Positions 992-17,519 of a DNA stretch of 34,666 nucleotides are shown piece by piece (the first letter of the stretch is position 1; each line of letters starts with the position of its first letter). This stretch comes from Bacilli bacterium (lineage in GTDB: Bacteria; Bacillota_I; Bacilli_A; RF39; UBA660). The notes below the pieces were generated by a model, which worked only from the letters and a program-made list of their open reading frames with translations, was not told the DNA's origin and ran no database searches. The position numbers and the translations under genes are program-made. The stretch covers positions 1 to 34,666 of the forward strand of contig JAAVZT010000034.1 of assembly GCA_022791775.1 (NCBI GenBank). The letters are read 5' to 3'.

Positions 992-1786
992 ATGACAATC
1001 TATTTAGATTTAATTGCAATTTTAAATTTTGGAATGGATTTTATTTTATTATTCACAGTAAATAATACTTTGAAAAGAAATACCAAATTAAGAAGAATGA
1101 TATTTGGAGGACTATTTGGAAGTTTGACACTTATTTTTTTGTTTTTGCCACTTCACTCTTTTGCTTTATTTTTTTTAAAAATAATCGTCAGTTTTTTAAT
1201 GTGTATCATAACCTTTCAATTTAAAAACTGGCGATATACAATCGAAAATATGATTTATTTTTATATGAGTGGTACAATTCTTGGAGGTTTTCTTTATTAT
1301 CTCAATTTAGAATTTAGCTACAAACATGAAGGTATTGTTTTTTTTCATCACGGCTTATCCATTAACTTTATTTTTTTAATCATAATTTCTCCAATAATAT
1401 TATATATTTACATTAGAAGTCAAAAAAAATTAAAAACACACTACCAACATTATTACAAATTAAATATTTTATTTAAAAATAATCAAACTATTACTGTGAA
1501 TGCTTTTTTAGATACAGGAAATAAATTGATGGATCCTGTTACAAAAAAAGGAATTATTTTAGTGGAAGAAAAATCCTTACGTAAAATAAAAATGCCACAT
1601 GTTATTTATGTTCCTTATCATTCTTTAAACAATCATGGATTACTAAAATGTATCGCCCCGAAAAGTGTTACGCTAGATGGAGTGAGTTCTAAAAATTATT
1701 TAATAGGAATAAGTGAGAAAAAATTTCAAATCAATGGAATCGAATGTATATTAAATTCAAAATGTCTGGAGGATTTACCATGTTAA
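992..1786 (+). CDS. spoIIGA: SpoIIGA, sporulation pro-sigma-E processing aspartic peptidase
   Basis: This is the membrane-embedded protease that cuts the pro-sequence from sigma-E in the mother cell after a signal from the forespore (SpoIIR in the known system). The N-terminal ~140 residues form several hydrophobic segments (about 5-25, 35-75, 88-105, 118-142), matching the five-span membrane domain. The C-terminal half is the protease domain with the aspartic-protease signature LDTGNKLMDP; Asp174-Thr-Gly is the expected catalytic site. The later stretch VPYHSLNNHGLL and KSVTLDG also fits the family. Length (264 aa) is slightly below the usual ~300. The ATG has GTGGTGAT just upstream. The 3' end overlaps the sigE start by 7 bp, implying translational coupling of protease and substrate. 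Confidence 0.93.
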   Translation: MTIYLDLIAILNFGMDFILLFTVNNTLKRNTKLRRMIFGGLFGSLTLIFLFLPLHSFALFFLKIIVSFLMCIITFQFKNWRYTIENMIYFYMSGTILGGFLYYLNLEFSYKHEGIVFFHHGLSINFIFLIIISPIILYIYIRSQKKLKTHYQHYYKLNILFKNNQTITVNAFLDTGNKLMDPVTKKGIILVEEKSLRKIKMPHVIYVPYHSLNNHGLLKCIAPKSVTLDGVSSKNYLIGISEKKFQINGIECILNSKCLEDLPC

Positions 1787-2463
1787 GAAAAATATTAGAG
1801 TGGTTACGTTCAAAGTATAATGAATGTTTTTTTGTAGGAAGTACCGATAAATTACCACCCCCATTAAGTAAAGAGAAAGAATTAGAATGTTTAGTTAAAT
1901 TAAGTCAAGGCGATGAAGAAGCTAGAAATATTTTAATTGAACATAATTTAAGGTTAGTAGTTTTTCTAGCCAAAAAATATGAAAATACAGGATATGATGT
2001 AGAAGATTTAGTAAGTATTGGGTCCATTGGACTAATTAAAGGAATTAATACTTACAAAATAGATAAAAACATCAAATTAGCTACTTATGCCTCTCGTTGC
2101 ATAGCAAATGAAATATTAATGTTTTTAAGAAAAAACAAAAAAAGAAAAGGTGAAGTATCATTTGAAGACGCATTAAACTATGATGCAGAGGGCAACGAAT
2201 TACATTTAGAAGATATTCTCGGAACGGACGAAGATTTAGTTAGCAAAGAATTTGAAAGTAATCAAGAAAAAAGAATCTTATCGAGTGAAATAAACAAATT
2301 AAATCCCCGTGATAAACAAATTATGGTTTTAAGATATGGTCTAAATAATACAGAAGAATATACCCAAAAAGAAGTTGCTGAAATGCTAGGGATTAGTCAA
2401 TCCTATATTTCTAGAATTGAAAAAAAAGTTATCAAAAATTTAAAAAATTTATTAAAAATATAA
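1780..2463 (+). CDS. sigE: RNA polymerase sporulation sigma factor sigma-E (pro-form)
   Basis: This is the mother-cell sigma factor, made as an inactive precursor. The start chosen is ATG 1780, 6 nt after a TGGAGGA ribosome-binding site; an in-frame ATG at 1744 lies inside spoIIGA and lacks a good site. The product has 227 residues. Residues 1-~20 (MLRKILEWLRSKYNECFF) form the amphipathic pro-sequence, and the following VGSTDKLPPPLS matches the conserved junction after the SpoIIGA cut. Region 2 contains EHNLRLVVFLAKKYENTG, DLVSIGSIGLIKGI and KLATYASRCIANEI; region 4 ends in TQKEVAEMLGISQSYISRIEKK, a helix-turn-helix. Adjacent spoIIGA upstream and sigG downstream make the assignment secure. 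Confidence 0.97.
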   Translation: MLRKILEWLRSKYNECFFVGSTDKLPPPLSKEKELECLVKLSQGDEEARNILIEHNLRLVVFLAKKYENTGYDVEDLVSIGSIGLIKGINTYKIDKNIKLATYASRCIANEILMFLRKNKKRKGEVSFEDALNYDAEGNELHLEDILGTDEDLVSKEFESNQEKRILSSEINKLNPRDKQIMVLRYGLNNTEEYTQKEVAEMLGISQSYISRIEKKVIKNLKNLLKI

Positions 2464-2486
2464 AAAAAGATATTTTATTGAATAAA

Positions 2487-2527
2487 AAAAGTTCCTTTTA
2501 AGCAATAACTACTTGAAAGGAACTTTT
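2487..2527 (+). promoter_or_regulatory. Hairpin sequestering the sigG ribosome-binding site
   Basis: Bases 2487-2502 (AAAAGTTCCTTTTAAG) pair with 2512-2527 (CTTGAAAGGAACTTTT): 16 base pairs with a single G-U wobble and a 9-nt loop. The right arm contains AAAGGAAC, the only plausible Shine-Dalgarno sequence for sigG, and ends 3 nt before its ATG at 2531. The downstream T run is only four bases, so this is a poor plus-strand terminator and a good translational lock. Confidence 0.8.
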
Positions 2528-2530
2528 AAA

Positions 2531-3307
2531 ATGGCAAAATATAAAGTAGAAATTACAGGTTTAAATACCAATCATATTAAAGTATTAAAAAGTGAAGAGA
2601 ATTTAGTATTGTTTCAAAAATATCAGCAAGGAGATTTAAGTGCAAAAGAAGAATTGATTAATGGAAATTTAAAATTAGTGTTAAGTATTTTAAAAAAATT
2701 TAATAACACAAAATATAATATGGACGACCTATTTCAGGTAGGTGTAATTGGACTTATAAAAGCAATTGATAATTTTGATTTATCCTATAACTTAAAATTA
2801 AGTACCTATGCTTGTCCATTAATTTTAGGAGAAATTAAACGTTATATTCGAGATAATACGAGTGTCAGAGTAAGTAGAAGCATTAAAGATATTGCTTATC
2901 AAATATTACGCTATAAAGATGAATATGTAAACGAATATGGAGAAGAACCCACAAATCATCAGATCGCGAAAGCATTAGACTTAGAAGAATATAAAATATC
3001 TTATGCTCTAGATTCTTTGCGGGATCCTGTTAGTATCTTTGAACCAATTTATAATGATGGTGGAGATACCATTTATTTGCTCGATCAACTGGCAGATACA
3101 AAAGAAAAAAATAAAGACCAAGATATGATTATTTCTTTAAATCGTGCCATTCAAAAATTAAAAGAACGAGAACGAAATATTTTAAGAGAACGTTTTATTA
3201 TAGGTAAAACACAAATGGAAATTGCAAAAAGGCTAAATATTAGTCAAGCCCAAGTATCTAGAATTGAAAAAAGTGCCATAACGAATGTCCGAAAACTCAT
3301 CAAATAA
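2531..3307 (+). CDS. sigG: RNA polymerase sporulation sigma factor sigma-G (forespore)
   Basis: This is the late forespore sigma factor. The start is ATG 2531, giving 258 residues that begin MAKYKVEITGLNTNHIKVL, matching the KVEI-G-(D/N)T N-terminus typical of sigma-G. Region 2 shows NGNLKLVLSILKKFNN, DDLFQVGVIGLIKAIDNFDLS and STYACPLILGEIKRYIRD followed by VRVSRS. Region 3 carries DPVSIFEPIYNDGGD, a hallmark of sigma-F/G proteins. Region 4 ends GKTQMEIAKRLNISQAQVSRIEKSA. An upstream TTG (2513) could extend the frame but lies inside the ribosome-binding-site hairpin. The gene sits 67 nt after sigE, the conserved Firmicute arrangement; its own forespore promoter (expected sigma-F type) could not be identified with confidence. 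Confidence 0.96.
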   Translation: MAKYKVEITGLNTNHIKVLKSEENLVLFQKYQQGDLSAKEELINGNLKLVLSILKKFNNTKYNMDDLFQVGVIGLIKAIDNFDLSYNLKLSTYACPLILGEIKRYIRDNTSVRVSRSIKDIAYQILRYKDEYVNEYGEEPTNHQIAKALDLEEYKISYALDSLRDPVSIFEPIYNDGGDTIYLLDQLADTKEKNKDQDMIISLNRAIQKLKERERNILRERFIIGKTQMEIAKRLNISQAQVSRIEKSAITNVRKLIK

Positions 3308-7204: not shown

Positions 7205-7233
7205 TTGACACGAAACTATGTTCGTTTTATAAT
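7205..7233 (+). promoter_or_regulatory. SOS promoter with LexA box filling the spacer
   Basis: Consensus TTGACA (7205-7210), 17 bp, consensus TATAAT (7228-7233). The spacer begins with the SOS box CGAAACTATGTTCG (7211-7224), one base from the CGAAC...GTTCG consensus. Bound LexA would cover the core promoter. Confidence 0.9.
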
Positions 7234-7257
7234 TAAGTTCAGAAAGAGGGAGTAAAT

Positions 7258-7410
7258 ATGAGTAAAATGTTAAAAAGTTATGGAGGCCTAATGCTATTTT
7301 ATGGAGTAATTATATTGGGATTTGTTTTACTAAATGAAAGATTTCGTTACTTGAATCAACTTGAATTATCATGTGAAAGTTCCGCAAGAGAGGGAATACA
7401 AAAAAATTAG
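7258..7410 (+). CDS. Small LexA-controlled single-pass membrane protein (50 aa), candidate SOS division inhibitor
   Basis: No sequence family is recognised. ATG 7258 is preceded by AGAGGGAG and lies 25 nt after the -10 of the SOS promoter. Translation gives 50 residues: a short basic start (MSKMLKSYGG), one hydrophobic helix (about 11-25, LMLFYGVIILGFVLL) and a polar tail of about 25 residues ending EGIQKN. The gene occupies the place of yneA in B. subtilis (divergent from lexA, upstream of tkt). YneA is a membrane-anchored SOS inhibitor of cell division, but it is longer and carries LysM, absent here. A division-inhibitor role is inferred from position, control and topology only. The stop at 7408-7410 leaves 13 nt before the next start. 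Confidence 0.72.
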   Translation: MSKMLKSYGGLMLFYGVIILGFVLLNERFRYLNQLELSCESSAREGIQKN

Positions 7411-7423
7411 GAAGGGTAGAAAT

Positions 7424-7714
7424 ATGTGTAAAAAAGAATTAATTGAAAAAATGAAAACAAAAAGTAGTTTGGTTGTCATGCAAAGTTATGTGAAAGATAT
7501 TATGAAAGAAAAATATAAAGAAAACTTATTAGATGAAGAAATATTTACATTATTTGAAAAAATTGTAGATTTAGCAAATGATGTTTATGAAGAAGATAAT
7601 TATTCTGAACGTCTTGATTTGTCAAGTATCTTTTCAGTATTAATCTCTCTGTGCAATAAAAGGAAAATTAATTTTCTAGAGACAATTTGTCTTTCTGATA
7701 TGCAGTCCTTTTAA
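7424..7714 (+). CDS. Hypothetical protein (96 aa), second gene of the SOS operon
   Basis: Not recognised. The open frame extends back to 7361, but that would overlap the 50-aa gene in another frame; ATG 7424 has AGGAAGGG at good spacing and is preferred. The product is soluble and helical, starts MCKKELIEKMKTKSSLVV, has acidic stretches in the middle (NLLDEEIFTLFEKIVDL, YEEDNYSERLDLSS) and three Cys. No membrane span or known motif is seen. It follows the SOS-promoted gene by 13 nt and should be co-induced by DNA damage; it occupies the yneB/ynzC region of the Bacillus lexA locus but resembles neither clearly. A separate promoter for the next gene starts 8 nt after its stop. Confidence 0.7.
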   Translation: MCKKELIEKMKTKSSLVVMQSYVKDIMKEKYKENLLDEEIFTLFEKIVDLANDVYEEDNYSERLDLSSIFSVLISLCNKRKINFLETICLSDMQSF

Positions 7715-7721
7715 TAAGGAA

Positions 7722-7750
7722 TTGTGAGCTGGTTGTTTTTTTGTTATACT
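7722..7750 (+). promoter_or_regulatory. Promoter of the transketolase-like gene
   Basis: TTGTGA (7722-7727), 17 bp, TATACT (7745-7750), with an extended -10 TG at 7742-7743. It is 18 nt before the start codon and separates this gene from the SOS operon. Confidence 0.75.
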
Positions 7751-7767: not shown

Positions 7768-9744
7768 ATGAATCAAGAAGATATTCGTACATTAAATGAA
7801 TTAAAAATGCTTAGTATTGATATGATTACACATGCAAATGGTGGCTCTCCGGGGATTGTATTAAGTGTTGCTCCAATTGTTTATACTTTATTTCATCGCC
7901 ATTTAAATATTCGACCAAATGAACCAGATTGGATCAATCGGGATCGTTTTATTGCCACTGGTGGAGAAATAACCAGCATTTTATATGCGGCACTTCATAT
8001 GGCTGGCTTTCCCATTACAAGAGACGATTTATTAAGATATCGAGGAATAAAAAGTCTTACACCAGGATTTTTAGAACATAAATTAACGCCAGGTATTGAT
8101 GCAACAACAGGATTAAATGGATCAGGTGTTGGGATTGCGGTGGGAGAAGCATTAGCACAGAGATTTTATAAAAATACAATTGAAAAAGAAGACGATCGCT
8201 TAAAGTTAATTGATTATACGATTTATTGCTTTTGTAGCGAATCGGATATGATGGAAGGAATTGCAAACGAAGCATGCTCCTTTGCGGGAGTACAAAAGTT
8301 AGAAAATTTAGTACTATTATACAATGCAACGAATATTACAGAAGATGGAACATTAGAAAATGTCTTGCAAGAAGATATCGCTAAAAAATATCAAGCTCTT
8401 GGATTTTATGTAGACGAATTAAAAGATGTAACAAACATTAGAGATATAGATAAGGCGCTCACAGCTGCCAAAAAAAGTAGCAAACCAGCGTTAATTATCT
8501 TTCGGACCATCCTTGGAAAAGAATCTTTTAATGAAAATAAAAACATTATATATAATCGTCCTTTAACTCCTGATGATGTTGCAAATTTACGAAAAAAATG
8601 GAATTTATTTTTACCACCTTTCGAAGTATCAAAAGATAGCATGATTTTTTTTCAGAAAAATATTACCGAACGAACGAATAAGAAATATCAAAAATGGGAA
8701 GAAATATATCAAAAAGCAGAAAGTAATGGGAATCCGATTGTGCTAAATGCTATAAAAGCATTAAAACAAAAAGCAGTAATGATTGATTTTGATAGCGATC
8801 ATTATAAAATAAATGATAATTATCGAGAGCCACTGATAGAATCTAATCTAAAAGTAATGAATTTATTTGGAAATAAAACAAACCTTTTTTTAGGAGGAAG
8901 TGCAGATTATATGCTTTCCTGCCAAACCTACTTAAATGGAGAAGAGATTCAAAGTAGAAAAAGTCCTTGCGGAAGGAATATCCGTTTTGGAAAAAGAGAA
9001 CATGCGATGGGCTCCATTTTAAATGGATTAGCTTTAACAGGACTTCGCGTTTATGGAAGCACCAAATTAGTCTATGCAGATTATTTAAAATCACAAATTC
9101 GTCTAAGTGCTTTAATGAATTTACCTGTCACTTACATATTTACGCATGATACCATTTCTGTAGGAGAAGAGGGACCTGCAATGGAAGCGATCGAGCAATT
9201 ATCCATGCTTCGTACGATTCCGAATTTGATCTGTTACCGACCAGGAGATATTATTGAGATAATGGGAGCCTGGGAAAATATTTTAAAAAACAATCATCCA
9301 TCTGTTTTGATAATTACTCAAAACAATACTCCAAAATTGCCAGGCTCGAACGCAAAACTAGTGGCCCACGGAGCTTACATTATGAAGCAAGAAAAAAATA
9401 AATTAGATGGAATCATAGTGAGTTCAGGAAGTGAATTAGTTTATGCACTTCAAATGTCATATGATTTCGAACAGTTAGGATTAGATATTCGAGTTGTTTC
9501 GGTGCCTTCATTGGAACTATTCTTAAGTGCAGGAAAAGAATATGAAGAAAAAGTTTTGCCAACTCATGTTAAGAAAATTGTAATCGAAGCAGGAAATCCC
9601 CTTCTTTGGAATCGTTTAACAGAGTATGATAATATAATTGGGCTAGAAGAATTTGGATATAGTGGACATACACATGAAGTCTTAAAAGAAATGGGATTTG
9701 ACTATGAGTCTTTAAAAGAGAAAGTATTAGAACGATTAAAATAA
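7768..9744 (+). CDS. tkt: Transketolase homologue with degenerate active site
   Basis: Full-length transketolase fold (658 aa), placed between the lexA locus and sirA-yneF exactly as tkt is in Bacillus. All three domains are recognisable: N-terminal (INRDRFIATG, TTGLNGSGVGIAVGEALA), middle (GGSADYML 376-383, FGKREHAMG 407-415, THDTISVGEEGP 459-470) and C-terminal (VIEAGNPLLW, LEEFGYSGHTHEVLKEMGF). Glu411 of REHAMG is kept. However, against E. coli TktA numbering from memory, His26 is Ser27, His66 is Glu67, His100 is Phe101, His261 is Tyr262 and His473 is Met472. The GDG of the thiamine-diphosphate motif reads SES (157-159), and the metal-binding Asn185 is Thr188. Ordinary transketolase chemistry is therefore doubtful; it may be a pseudoenzyme or have a new role. 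The frame is intact with its own promoter, so it is not a decayed pseudogene. Confidence 0.85.
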   Translation: MNQEDIRTLNELKMLSIDMITHANGGSPGIVLSVAPIVYTLFHRHLNIRPNEPDWINRDRFIATGGEITSILYAALHMAGFPITRDDLLRYRGIKSLTPGFLEHKLTPGIDATTGLNGSGVGIAVGEALAQRFYKNTIEKEDDRLKLIDYTIYCFCSESDMMEGIANEACSFAGVQKLENLVLLYNATNITEDGTLENVLQEDIAKKYQALGFYVDELKDVTNIRDIDKALTAAKKSSKPALIIFRTILGKESFNENKNIIYNRPLTPDDVANLRKKWNLFLPPFEVSKDSMIFFQKNITERTNKKYQKWEEIYQKAESNGNPIVLNAIKALKQKAVMIDFDSDHYKINDNYREPLIESNLKVMNLFGNKTNLFLGGSADYMLSCQTYLNGEEIQSRKSPCGRNIRFGKREHAMGSILNGLALTGLRVYGSTKLVYADYLKSQIRLSALMNLPVTYIFTHDTISVGEEGPAMEAIEQLSMLRTIPNLICYRPGDIIEIMGAWENILKNNHPSVLIITQNNTPKLPGSNAKLVAHGAYIMKQEKNKLDGIIVSSGSELVYALQMSYDFEQLGLDIRVVSVPSLELFLSAGKEYEEKVLPTHVKKIVIEAGNPLLWNRLTEYDNIIGLEEFGYSGHTHEVLKEMGFDYESLKEKVLERLK

Positions 9745-9802: not shown

Positions 9803-10219
9803 ATGCGACAATTTTATATCTTCAAAATTAAAAAAGAATTTGCTACATTAACGCAAAAAAATCCTTATCATTTATTTCGAACCCTTGAGCAACTTTATTA
9901 TGTAGAGGAAAGTGATATATCACTTGGAATGGATTTGTTTGAACGATTAATTGAACGATTTAATCCTCGTCAATTAGATATTGAAATATTCAAAAAATAT
10001 AAAGAAAATTATTTTTATTCCAAGTATCGCAATATTCATCATTTATACGATAAATATCGTAACGAAGAAACAACTCTCAGAGTCAATCGAACTTACTTGG
10101 AGATTGAAAGTACAGTTCCTCGTCCGACTTTCTTAAAAGATTTGGAATGTGAAAAAAATTTATTTTTTTGCGATTTTGTAAACAAAGATTTTTTTTGGCT
10201 AGAAAAAATTTATATATAA
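9803..10219 (+). CDS. sirA: SirA-like sporulation inhibitor of replication
   Basis: SirA binds domain I of DnaA and blocks new rounds of replication when cells enter sporulation. This 138-residue protein (B. subtilis SirA is about 148) starts MRQFYIFKIKKEFATLTQKN, like the aromatic (Y/F)xFxIKxEFA start of SirA, and ends with CDFVNKDFFWLEKIYI, like its DFNSKRYGWL ending. The middle is divergent. The position between tkt and yneF is that of B. subtilis yneE/sirA, which weighs heavily. AAAGGTGAT precedes the ATG at good spacing. Phe/Tyr content is high and no membrane span is present. It fits the sporulation genes at the left of the window. Confidence 0.78.
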   Translation: MRQFYIFKIKKEFATLTQKNPYHLFRTLEQLYYVEESDISLGMDLFERLIERFNPRQLDIEIFKKYKENYFYSKYRNIHHLYDKYRNEETTLRVNRTYLEIESTVPRPTFLKDLECEKNLFFCDFVNKDFFWLEKIYI

Positions 10220-13349: not shown

Positions 13350-15098
13350 ATGAATATTAAAGATTTATATATCAATTTTTTTGTAAGCAAAGGACATGTA
13401 GAAATCCCAAGCGCGCCCATTGTTCCCGAAAATGATCCATCCGTATTATTTAATACTGCGGGAATGCAACCTTTGATTCCATATCTAATGGGCGAAATCC
13501 ATCCAAGTGGCAATCGGCTTTGTGATGCCCAAAAATGTGTCCGTTTAACTGATTTAGAAGAAGTCGGAGATAAAACGCATCATACCTTTTTTGAAATGCT
13601 GGGTAATTGGAGTTTAGGAAATTATTTTAAAAAAGAAAGCATTACCTATAGTTATGAGTTTTTAACGAATGTTTTAAAATTACCAAAAGAACGCCTTGCC
13701 ATAACCGTTTTTAAAGGGGATGAAGAAATTCCAAAAGATGAGGAAAGTGCGGAATGTTGGAAAAAAATGGGGATTAAAGAGGAAAAAATTGCTTATTTAG
13801 GACGCGAAGATAACTTTTGGGCGGCTGGAGAAACAGGACCTTGCGGAACTGACACTGAAATTTTTTATTGGCGAAGCGAGGAAGAAGTTCCAACTACGTT
13901 TGACCCAACGGATGATAGATGGGTAGAAATATGGAACAATGTTTTTATGGAATACAATCGTAAATCGGATTATACTATTGAACTTCTTCCTAAAAAGAAT
14001 GTAGATACAGGAATGGGCTTAGAACGAATCGTTGCCGTTGTAGAAGGAGTAAATGATAATTATACTTCTTCCATTTGGATAGATATTATAAAAAAAATAG
14101 AAGAAATTACAGAGTTACCTTATGAAGGAAATGAAAAAGGCATGCGTATTATAGCTGATCATATAAGAACGAGCGTATTTATTGCAGCAGACCCAGCCCA
14201 AATAGTTCCAAGTAATACTGATCAGGGTTATATTTTAAGAAGATTAATTCGCCGCGCCATTCGTTATGCTAAAAAATTGAATATAGATATTAATAGTAAT
14301 TGGGATAAAATAATTGCCAAAGCAATTATAGCGAAATACGAAACTTATTATCCAGAATTAAAACAACAACAAGAACGTATTTTAAATATTTTATATGAAG
14401 AAAAAAACAAATTTAATCGGACATTAGAACGAGGATTAAAAGAATTTGAAAAAGTTGCTAGAAAACAAACTGAAATTGATAAGATTACAGCCTTTCACTT
14501 ATATGATACTTACGGTTTTCCTATTGAGTTAACCACTGAATTAGCCATGGAACGAAATATGAAAGTGGACGAAAAAGGATTTCAGGAGAAAATGAAAGAG
14601 CATCAAGAAAAATCTCGAACAGCTTCAGCTGGAAAATTTAAAGGTGGCTTAGCAGGGAATAGTGAAATAGAAACCAAATATCATACAGCCACCCACTTAT
14701 TAAATGCAGCTTTAAAAATAGTGTTAGGAGATGATACCCATCAGCGAGGAAGCAATATTACGGAAGAAAGAATGCGCTTTGATTTCAATTGTGACCATAA
14801 ATTGACGGATGAAGAAAAACGACAAGTGGAAGACTTAGTAAATCAATTTATCGCGGATGATTTACCAGTAAAAAAAGAAGAAATGACGAAACAAAACGCT
14901 TTAGAGATTGGAGCCGAAGCCATGTTTATCGAAAAGTATCCTGAAGTGTTAAATGTATACTTCATTGGAGAAATTTCGAAAGAGATTTGTGGAGGTCCTC
15001 ACGTAAAAAGTACAAAAGAATTAGGACATTTCAAAATCAAAAAAGAAGAAGCTTCTAGTGCTGGGGTTAGACGTATAAAAGCTGTTTTAGAAGATTGA
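13350..15098 (+). CDS. alaS: Alanyl-tRNA synthetase, compact form
   Basis: Charges tRNA-Ala. Usual bacterial AlaRS has ~870 residues; this has 582 with an intact frame. The class II catalytic core is complete: FNTAGMQPLIPYLMG, KCVRLTDLEEVG, THHTFFEMLGNWSLG, the ETGPCGTDTE loop, and DTGMGLERI with the tRNA-binding helical region to about 430. The editing metal-binding residues are also present: His445/His449 (HTATH) and Cys547/His551 (CGGPH). Missing are the beta-barrel segment (no FYAESGGQxGD block; the core passes directly from ASAGKFKGGLAGN to the HTATH domain) and the whole C-terminal DHHA1/C-Ala region. The ending SSAGVRRIKAVLED is a natural domain end, and the gene is not frameshifted. 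CGGPH rather than CGGTH is, as I recall, common in reduced-genome and archaeal-like AlaRS. The ribosome-binding site is weak. Confidence 0.92.
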   Translation: MNIKDLYINFFVSKGHVEIPSAPIVPENDPSVLFNTAGMQPLIPYLMGEIHPSGNRLCDAQKCVRLTDLEEVGDKTHHTFFEMLGNWSLGNYFKKESITYSYEFLTNVLKLPKERLAITVFKGDEEIPKDEESAECWKKMGIKEEKIAYLGREDNFWAAGETGPCGTDTEIFYWRSEEEVPTTFDPTDDRWVEIWNNVFMEYNRKSDYTIELLPKKNVDTGMGLERIVAVVEGVNDNYTSSIWIDIIKKIEEITELPYEGNEKGMRIIADHIRTSVFIAADPAQIVPSNTDQGYILRRLIRRAIRYAKKLNIDINSNWDKIIAKAIIAKYETYYPELKQQQERILNILYEEKNKFNRTLERGLKEFEKVARKQTEIDKITAFHLYDTYGFPIELTTELAMERNMKVDEKGFQEKMKEHQEKSRTASAGKFKGGLAGNSEIETKYHTATHLLNAALKIVLGDDTHQRGSNITEERMRFDFNCDHKLTDEEKRQVEDLVNQFIADDLPVKKEEMTKQNALEIGAEAMFIEKYPEVLNVYFIGEISKEICGGPHVKSTKELGHFKIKKEEASSAGVRRIKAVLED

Positions 15099-16619: not shown

Positions 16620-17519
16620 GTGGAATTACCAGTTCGATTTGAATTTCCATTACATCATCAGATTCCATTTGGAACAGAACTAGAAGTAGCTGGATTTGAT
16701 ATTTTAAAACAATATCAAAAAAATAGTTTTAGAGAGCTAGATGTAAACTATCAAATAAATACGAGGTATGAAGAAAACAAAATAAGCGATTATCATAAAT
16801 GGCTTTTTACACATGATTCATCGATAATGCAAAATACAAGAGGAGTAGAAGTAATTTCTCCAATTAGTTTACTCAATCAAAAGTTTATTTTAGAATTAAT
16901 GAAACTTTGCAATTTTTTAACAAAATACGACGGGTTTATAACAGAAGAATGTTCGCAGCATATTCACGTTGGGTTCCACATATTCCCTAATTTAGATTCT
17001 GTAAAAACTTTTTTCTTACTATATTCCTTAACCGAGCCAGAATTAAATCGCTTTTTTGCTGGGGAACAAGAAACACTACGAGCACCAGCAGAATTTTGTT
17101 TTGCTCAAAATATCACAAAATTATTGCATAAAATAGATAAAGTTACCAAACTATTTCAAGAAAATGATCCGGCAATGTTTATTCAGCGTCTTCATATAAT
17201 GGAGAAAAGATGCGCCCTAAATGGTCGGAATATCAAATCATTTTCAAGAGAAAATCGTAATACAATAGAACTTCGTAGTCCAAATGGTTCATTAAATCCT
17301 ATAATTTTAGAAAATAATGTTTATTTCCTTCTAAAAATGATCGAATATTGTATCGAAAATCCAAAATGGCAAAATTTATATGAAGTATGGAAACTGCAAG
17401 ACGAAGAAAAAAATCGTTTGCCAGATCAAAATACAGCCCTTAAGCTATCAAGAATGATCCTAAAGGATCGTACAGATTTAAAATACTTTGACTGGCAGTA
17501 TGAGAAACATTTTAAATAG
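16620..17519 (+). CDS. Amidoligase-family (COOH-NH2 ligase) protein
   Basis: Resembles the Amidoligase_2 family, of glutamine-synthetase-like fold, thought to form amide or peptide bonds in peptide tagging, peptidoglycan or secondary metabolism. Family features in order: FGTELEVAGF (17-26) with the metal-binding Glu pair; HDSSI (65-69); RGVEVISPI (74-82); SQHIHVGFH (112-120), with His114 and His116; and RNTIELRSPNGSLN (~217-230), the conserved arginine/glutamate strand. Length (299 aa) is normal. The start is GTG 16620, 10 nt after AAGAAAGGG. It has its own strong promoter and ends 62 nt before ireB. No partner glutamine amidotransferase, carrier peptide or toxin gene is visible next to it, so the substrate is unknown. 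Confidence 0.82.
   Translation: MELPVRFEFPLHHQIPFGTELEVAGFDILKQYQKNSFRELDVNYQINTRYEENKISDYHKWLFTHDSSIMQNTRGVEVISPISLLNQKFILELMKLCNFLTKYDGFITEECSQHIHVGFHIFPNLDSVKTFFLLYSLTEPELNRFFAGEQETLRAPAEFCFAQNITKLLHKIDKVTKLFQENDPAMFIQRLHIMEKRCALNGRNIKSFSRENRNTIELRSPNGSLNPIILENNVYFLLKMIEYCIENPKWQNLYEVWKLQDEEKNRLPDQNTALKLSRMILKDRTDLKYFDWQYEKHFK

Follow-up and report, generated by a model that had tools for sequence, protein, structure and literature searches.

A sole-copy transketolase homologue of Bacilli that has lost its active-site residues and is kept by purifying selection as a probable pseudoenzyme

Pseudoenzymes are usually thought to come from spare duplicates. The closest parallel in fold to the protein described here is human TKTL1, a transketolase homologue without some of the active-site histidines, whose model protein TKT-delta38 showed neither specific thiamine diphosphate (ThDP) binding nor activity (PMC3485151), while others have made a case for activity of TKTL1 itself, and its inactivity is contested (PMC6334435). 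In logic, the nearest parallel is that of the fungal Ssd1/Dis3L2 pseudonucleases, whose nuclease activity disappeared on at least four occasions once a second function had arisen (PMC8097288). The pattern there is the same as the one reported below, repeated independent active-site loss with conservation of the protein, but the fold is unrelated, the organisms are eukaryotic, and RNA binding has been established as the second function. In the family of Bacilli examined here, the sole copy of a central-metabolism enzyme has apparently lost its chemistry, and apparent losses have occurred in about five events under near-normal purifying selection. Our literature search, which reached only a minority of subscription papers, turned up no description of a bacterial transketolase that is inactive.

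The window, a stretch of 34,666 nucleotides, makes up contig 12 in an assembly of 1.11 Mb that is 91% complete. The open reading frame at 7768..9744 on the forward strand encodes a 658-residue putative pseudo-transketolase that matches three Pfam domains in order and end to end (Transketolase_N, E = 2.5e-77; Transket_pyr, 1.6e-30; Transketolase_C_1, 5.9e-26; each passing its cut-off) and, over its full length, solved transketolases (best E = 6e-136). The domain set and order place it in the transketolase family by homology, and its fold-defining blocks and full length are kept, as originally predicted. It was aligned with 155 other transketolases and compared with the canonical bacterial enzymes E. 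coli TktA, L. salivarius transketolase (4c7v), and B. anthracis transketolase (3hyl). The likeness to canonical transketolases lies in full-length homology over three domains, an identity of 32 to 39% to class relatives, and an orthologous, single-copy gene. The predicted structure had a mean pLDDT of 38, too low for use, with the prediction limited to three sequences, and a scan of viral contigs for sequences that would deepen the transketolase alignment found none.

In E. coli and yeast transketolases, H26, H66, H100, H261, and H473 are catalytic or substrate histidines, GDG is the ThDP/metal motif, and N185 is a metal ligand. E411 activates the aminopyrimidine, F434 stacks on the aminopyrimidine ring, and R358 and R520 contact the substrate phosphate. 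With E. coli TktA as the anchor and numbering reference of the alignment, every substitution of the original prediction was recovered. The five histidines are replaced by S27 (codon 7846..7848, this and all following codons on the forward strand), E67 (7966..7968), F101 (8068..8070), Y262 (8551..8553), and M472 (9181..9183), respectively; G154-D155-G156 has become S157-E158-S159 (8236..8244), and N185 has become T188 (8329..8331). E411 (8998..9000) is retained, also as predicted. The same alignment revealed substitutions that had been overlooked, namely, F434 to K433 (9064..9066), R358 to I357 (8836..8838), R520 to Q518 (9319..9321), D469 to E468, and F437 to Y436, while H461 and S385 (E. coli numbering) are retained. 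Of the signatures of active transketolase (EC 2.2.1.1), the protein thus carries the aminopyrimidine-activating glutamate, with SES and T188 in place of the GDG...N motif and 0/5 histidines; unlike the canonical enzymes, it also lacks F434, R358, and R520, and it is an enzyme homologue without the conserved catalytic motifs. Misalignment or sequencing error was ruled out, as 12 species in three genera share clear motif blocks, and misalignment is excluded because these blocks align nearly gap-free. From these residues, we infer that the protein has no normal ThDP binding, carries out no two-carbon transfer, and has a largely repacked active-site pocket in which the lysine at the F434 position could pair with E411.

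The whole genome (a 91%-complete metagenome-assembled genome) contains one PF00456 match and one PF02779 match. A search of seven genus g1 genomes for a second, canonical transketolase, the first check proposed with the original prediction, found none, and a single locus per genome was seen in 7/7 genus g1 genomes and in five other members of the altered clade defined below. In contrast, TKTL1 coexists as a paralogue with an active TKT and lost its residues through a 38-residue deletion, whereas the sole copy in the window is still full length and has changed through point substitutions throughout its pocket. The other six genus g1 members have one orthologue each (62 to 68% identity), and the same residues are missing in all seven species. 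The G001 orthologue is divided between two contigs, and that of G004 runs off a contig edge with one in-frame TAA close to the edge. Close orthologues carrying all histidines, which would have pointed to sequencing error or recent decay, are therefore absent from the genus (7/7 altered).

Across the family, whose genomes are mostly fragmented assemblies, a transketolase match is present in 217/291 genomes and absent from 74/291, and, of 156 aligned transketolases, 131 carry the intact residue at each of 11 positions that were checked. Another seven have a single change at these positions, which is D155E in six. The main group of altered sequences comprises genera g1 (seven species), g91 (three), and g156 (two), 12 species that still form one clade when active-site columns are left out of the tree (UFBoot 97, SH-aLRT 89). 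The sister genus, g12, keeps the histidines, and the loss is therefore placed near the ancestor of the three genera. Within the clade, the GDG motif is altered in 12/12 members, with G156 changed to S, A, M, R, H, or V; R520 is gone in 12/12, and R358 is often lost too. H66 is changed to E, G, A, N, or I or is kept, H100 is mainly F, I, Y, M, or L, H261 is mostly Y or F, and H473 is mostly hydrophobic. Conserved features are E411 (10/12), H461 (11/12), and, in most members, Ser or Thr at position 385. Lysine occupies position 434 in 11/12 members and has a share of 0.00 among intact sequences.

Alterations are also found outside this clade, in the three species of genus g61 (H26Y, H100F, H461N, and H473E), in L029 (H100Y and H473N), and in two of the three species of genus g8, and parsimony gives five changes, or about five separate losses, across the family. 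Fewer residues are lost in these outside members, and some may retain activity. The genus g8 trio (L012 = G013, L069 = G281, and L071 = G180), two altered with different substitutions and one intact, is a recent natural matched set, and neighboring genera with intact and altered forms likewise provide natural matched pairs.

The original prediction had called for a test of dN/dS on orthologues. Codon models gave an omega of 0.035 to 0.042 in g1, with frames open over the available length, 0.01 to 0.026 in g91 and g156, and 0.01 in g61, compared with 0.011 to 0.028 in intact clades. Omega = 1 was rejected in every soundly fitted pair (2dlnL of 398 to 705 for altered pairs); the pairs L056-L057 and L062-L065 (infinite dS) were excluded from the set. 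Absolute omega values are rough because dS is saturated in most pairs, the closest altered pairs, L074-L076 (dS 2.9, omega 0.010) and L006-L007 (dS 3.4, omega 0.032), being the least saturated. At 64 columns lining the active site, the within-clade normalized rate was 1.13 in the altered clade versus 0.39 to 0.57 in four intact clades, while omega at these columns was 0.023. Constraint in the altered clade is shifted away from the active site. Two segments, residues 268 to 307 (8569..8688, forward strand) and residues 521 to 567 (9328..9468, forward strand), the latter at the Pyr/C-domain junction and the start of the C domain, evolve more slowly in the altered clade than the intact clades would predict and than rate-matched sites (p = 1e-4 and 1e-6, respectively), for regions that were chosen post hoc and with a contribution from a flatter rate distribution in this clade.

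These data bear on whether the gene is in ongoing decay, a relic of a lost pathway whose deletion is pending. The 74 genomes without a match, the release of constraint at the active site, an omega in g1 slightly above that of intact clades, and the in-frame TAA in G004 would all fit this reading. However, that TAA, at a contig edge, is the sole exception to open reading frames in the altered genes, which contain no other internal stop over a clade tree length of ∼4.3 substitutions/site. Omega is ∼25-fold below 1, at the active-site columns as elsewhere, and the promoter is preserved (see below). The gene therefore shows neither a broken frame nor an omega near 1, and we consider decay very unlikely. 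It is maintained by selection (omega of 0.01 to 0.04, omega = 1 rejected, promoter conserved), as expected of a pseudoenzyme, and the original preference for a pseudoenzyme or a new function over decay is supported by the losses shared among all seven genus species, the low omega, and the intact frames. The transketolase architecture is kept under strong purifying selection, while the ThDP/metal motif, the stacking phenylalanine, the five histidines, and R520 are lost.

The same residues allow the two other catalytic readings to be weighed. A neofunctionalized enzyme or sensor, whose pocket takes another ligand or supports ThDP-free chemistry, perhaps through the fixed Lys433, would account for the near-invariant lysine, for the retention of E411, H461, and Ser/Thr at 385, and for the purifying selection that persists at active-site columns (omega 0.023). 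Other pocket positions differ across the clade without a shared new constellation, however, and sugar phosphate binding is unlikely because R520 and often R358 are lost. We regard this reading as unlikely, and there is only an outside chance that Lys433, with E411 and H460 close by, provides a new site for ligand sensing or catalysis, in what would be a transketolase fold with cofactor-independent activity. The data favor a pseudoenzyme over a new catalytic function, and little speaks positively for the latter. A ThDP transketolase of weak or altered activity that relies on other residues could be imagined from TKTL1, with two histidines missing and its activity disputed (PMC6334435 versus PMC3485151), and from L029, L071, and genus g61 outside the main clade, which lose only some residues. 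In the clade of the window, by contrast, the GDG glycines, the stacking phenylalanine, R520, and most of the histidines are lost together, and ThDP is presumably available because these genomes encode phosphoketolases whose ThDP motif is intact. Residual transketolase activity in this clade is accordingly very improbable.

Phosphoketolase (Xfp) resembles transketolase as a ThDP enzyme with the same Xu5P substrate and is present in altered genomes, but it is a distinct family with intact motifs, to which the altered transketolase does not belong. The genome of the window encodes a full-length phosphoketolase with GHG and GDGE motifs, Rpe with intact motifs, and RpiB. All 13 altered-transketolase genomes examined encode a full-length phosphoketolase with GHG, GHA, or GHS and GDGE motifs, and most encode RpiB. 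Two broader explanations were thereby rejected: cellular loss of ThDP use, by the full-length phosphoketolase with an intact ThDP motif, and loss of the whole pathway, by the persistence of Rpe and RpiB. Phosphoketolase was found in 16/18 altered versus 42/115 intact genomes (Fisher p = 4e-5), the two altered genomes without a match being assemblies that are 87 to 89% complete, and in 61/74 transketolase-free versus 104/212 transketolase-bearing genomes (p = 3e-7). Most of five phylogenetically independent pairs showed no difference in phosphoketolase, and the association is permissive at best because it is confounded by phylogeny. The presence of phosphoketolase in intact sisters fits a permissive condition that predates the loss. 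Transaldolase was absent from 52/52 genomes tested, which is uninformative because these include genomes with intact transketolase. As a separate observation, thiamine pyrophosphokinase (TPK, PF04263) was absent from almost all family members, those with intact transketolase included, while the ThDP enzyme phosphoketolase is common; ThDP supply in the family may rely on direct uptake or a divergent kinase.

Taken together, our reading of the sequence comparisons is that the window protein is probably a single-copy pseudoenzyme, its chemistry made dispensable by phosphoketolase and its fold still selected for a second role. Phosphoketolase, fed by RpiB and Rpe, would consume pentose phosphates (Xu5P to GAP and acetyl-P), a bypass that could have let transketolase catalysis go. 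The transketolase of the family would already have had a second, fold-dependent role, so that the protein was kept after catalysis was lost; that the separate losses all kept the protein suggests that this role predates the loss of chemistry. Most likely, the protein, probably as a dimer, would bind another protein through surfaces that lie away from the active site, perhaps those at residues 268 to 307 and 521 to 567. Transketolase is missing from a quarter of the genomes in the family, and the second role is therefore dispensable in other lineages. If this explanation is correct, transketolase has a second function here that is separable from catalysis. It also carries a caution for metabolic reconstruction, in which annotation by family match would score such genomes as transketolase positive.

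The sequence upstream of the gene contains the promoter TTGTGA-17-TATACT (7722..7750, forward strand) with TG before the −10 element, in agreement with the good promoter originally described. Its extended −10 (TGnTATAMT) is shared by 11/11 clade species examined while the flanking DNA diverges, and transcription is therefore evidently maintained. A sirA-like gene lies 58 bases downstream (9803..10219, forward strand), and lexA is divergent and upstream. Across the family, the transketolase gene is often linked with sirA and lexA. The placement upstream of sirA is ancestral, as had been proposed, because many intact relatives show the same linkage. A functional meaning for this neighborhood was not supported. 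A complex with SirA, a DnaA regulator of sporulation, would account for the conserved gene pair, with sirA directly downstream (∼55 bases) in 15/18 altered genes and somewhat commoner in genomes with transketolase (182/217 versus 49/74, p = 0.002). Those same 49 genomes, most of the transketolase-free ones, retain sirA, however; in G268, sirA is placed on a separate contig, and the linkage is older than the alterations. An obligatory SirA partnership is rejected on the first two grounds, and we consider a SirA complex of any kind highly improbable as the explanation of the gene pair.

Several other features of the window were observed. In the stretches 7205-7409 and 7424-7714, a perfect sigma-70 promoter, TTGACA-17-TATAAT (7205-7233), overlaps the SOS-box-like sequence CGAAACTATGTTCG, which sits between the divergent lexA and a 50-residue open reading frame that contains a single hydrophobic segment and is YneA-like in its position. 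The open reading frame that follows is conserved in genera g1 and g156, and the two probably form a LexA-controlled operon. Sporulation genes are present in this 1.1-Mb genome, a combination that within class Bacilli would fit order RF39 (described in PMC10868615); positions 992-3307 hold a SpoIIGA protease gene (PF03419, E = 1.7e-49) and, after it, two sigma factor genes (sigE/sigG-like). Full-length alanyl-tRNA synthetase has about 870 residues; the one at 13350-15098 reads as only 582 residues, and its C-terminal part seems to be missing. An Amidoligase_2 family protein (PF12224, E = 2.6e-13), unusual for such a neighborhood, is encoded at 16620-17519.
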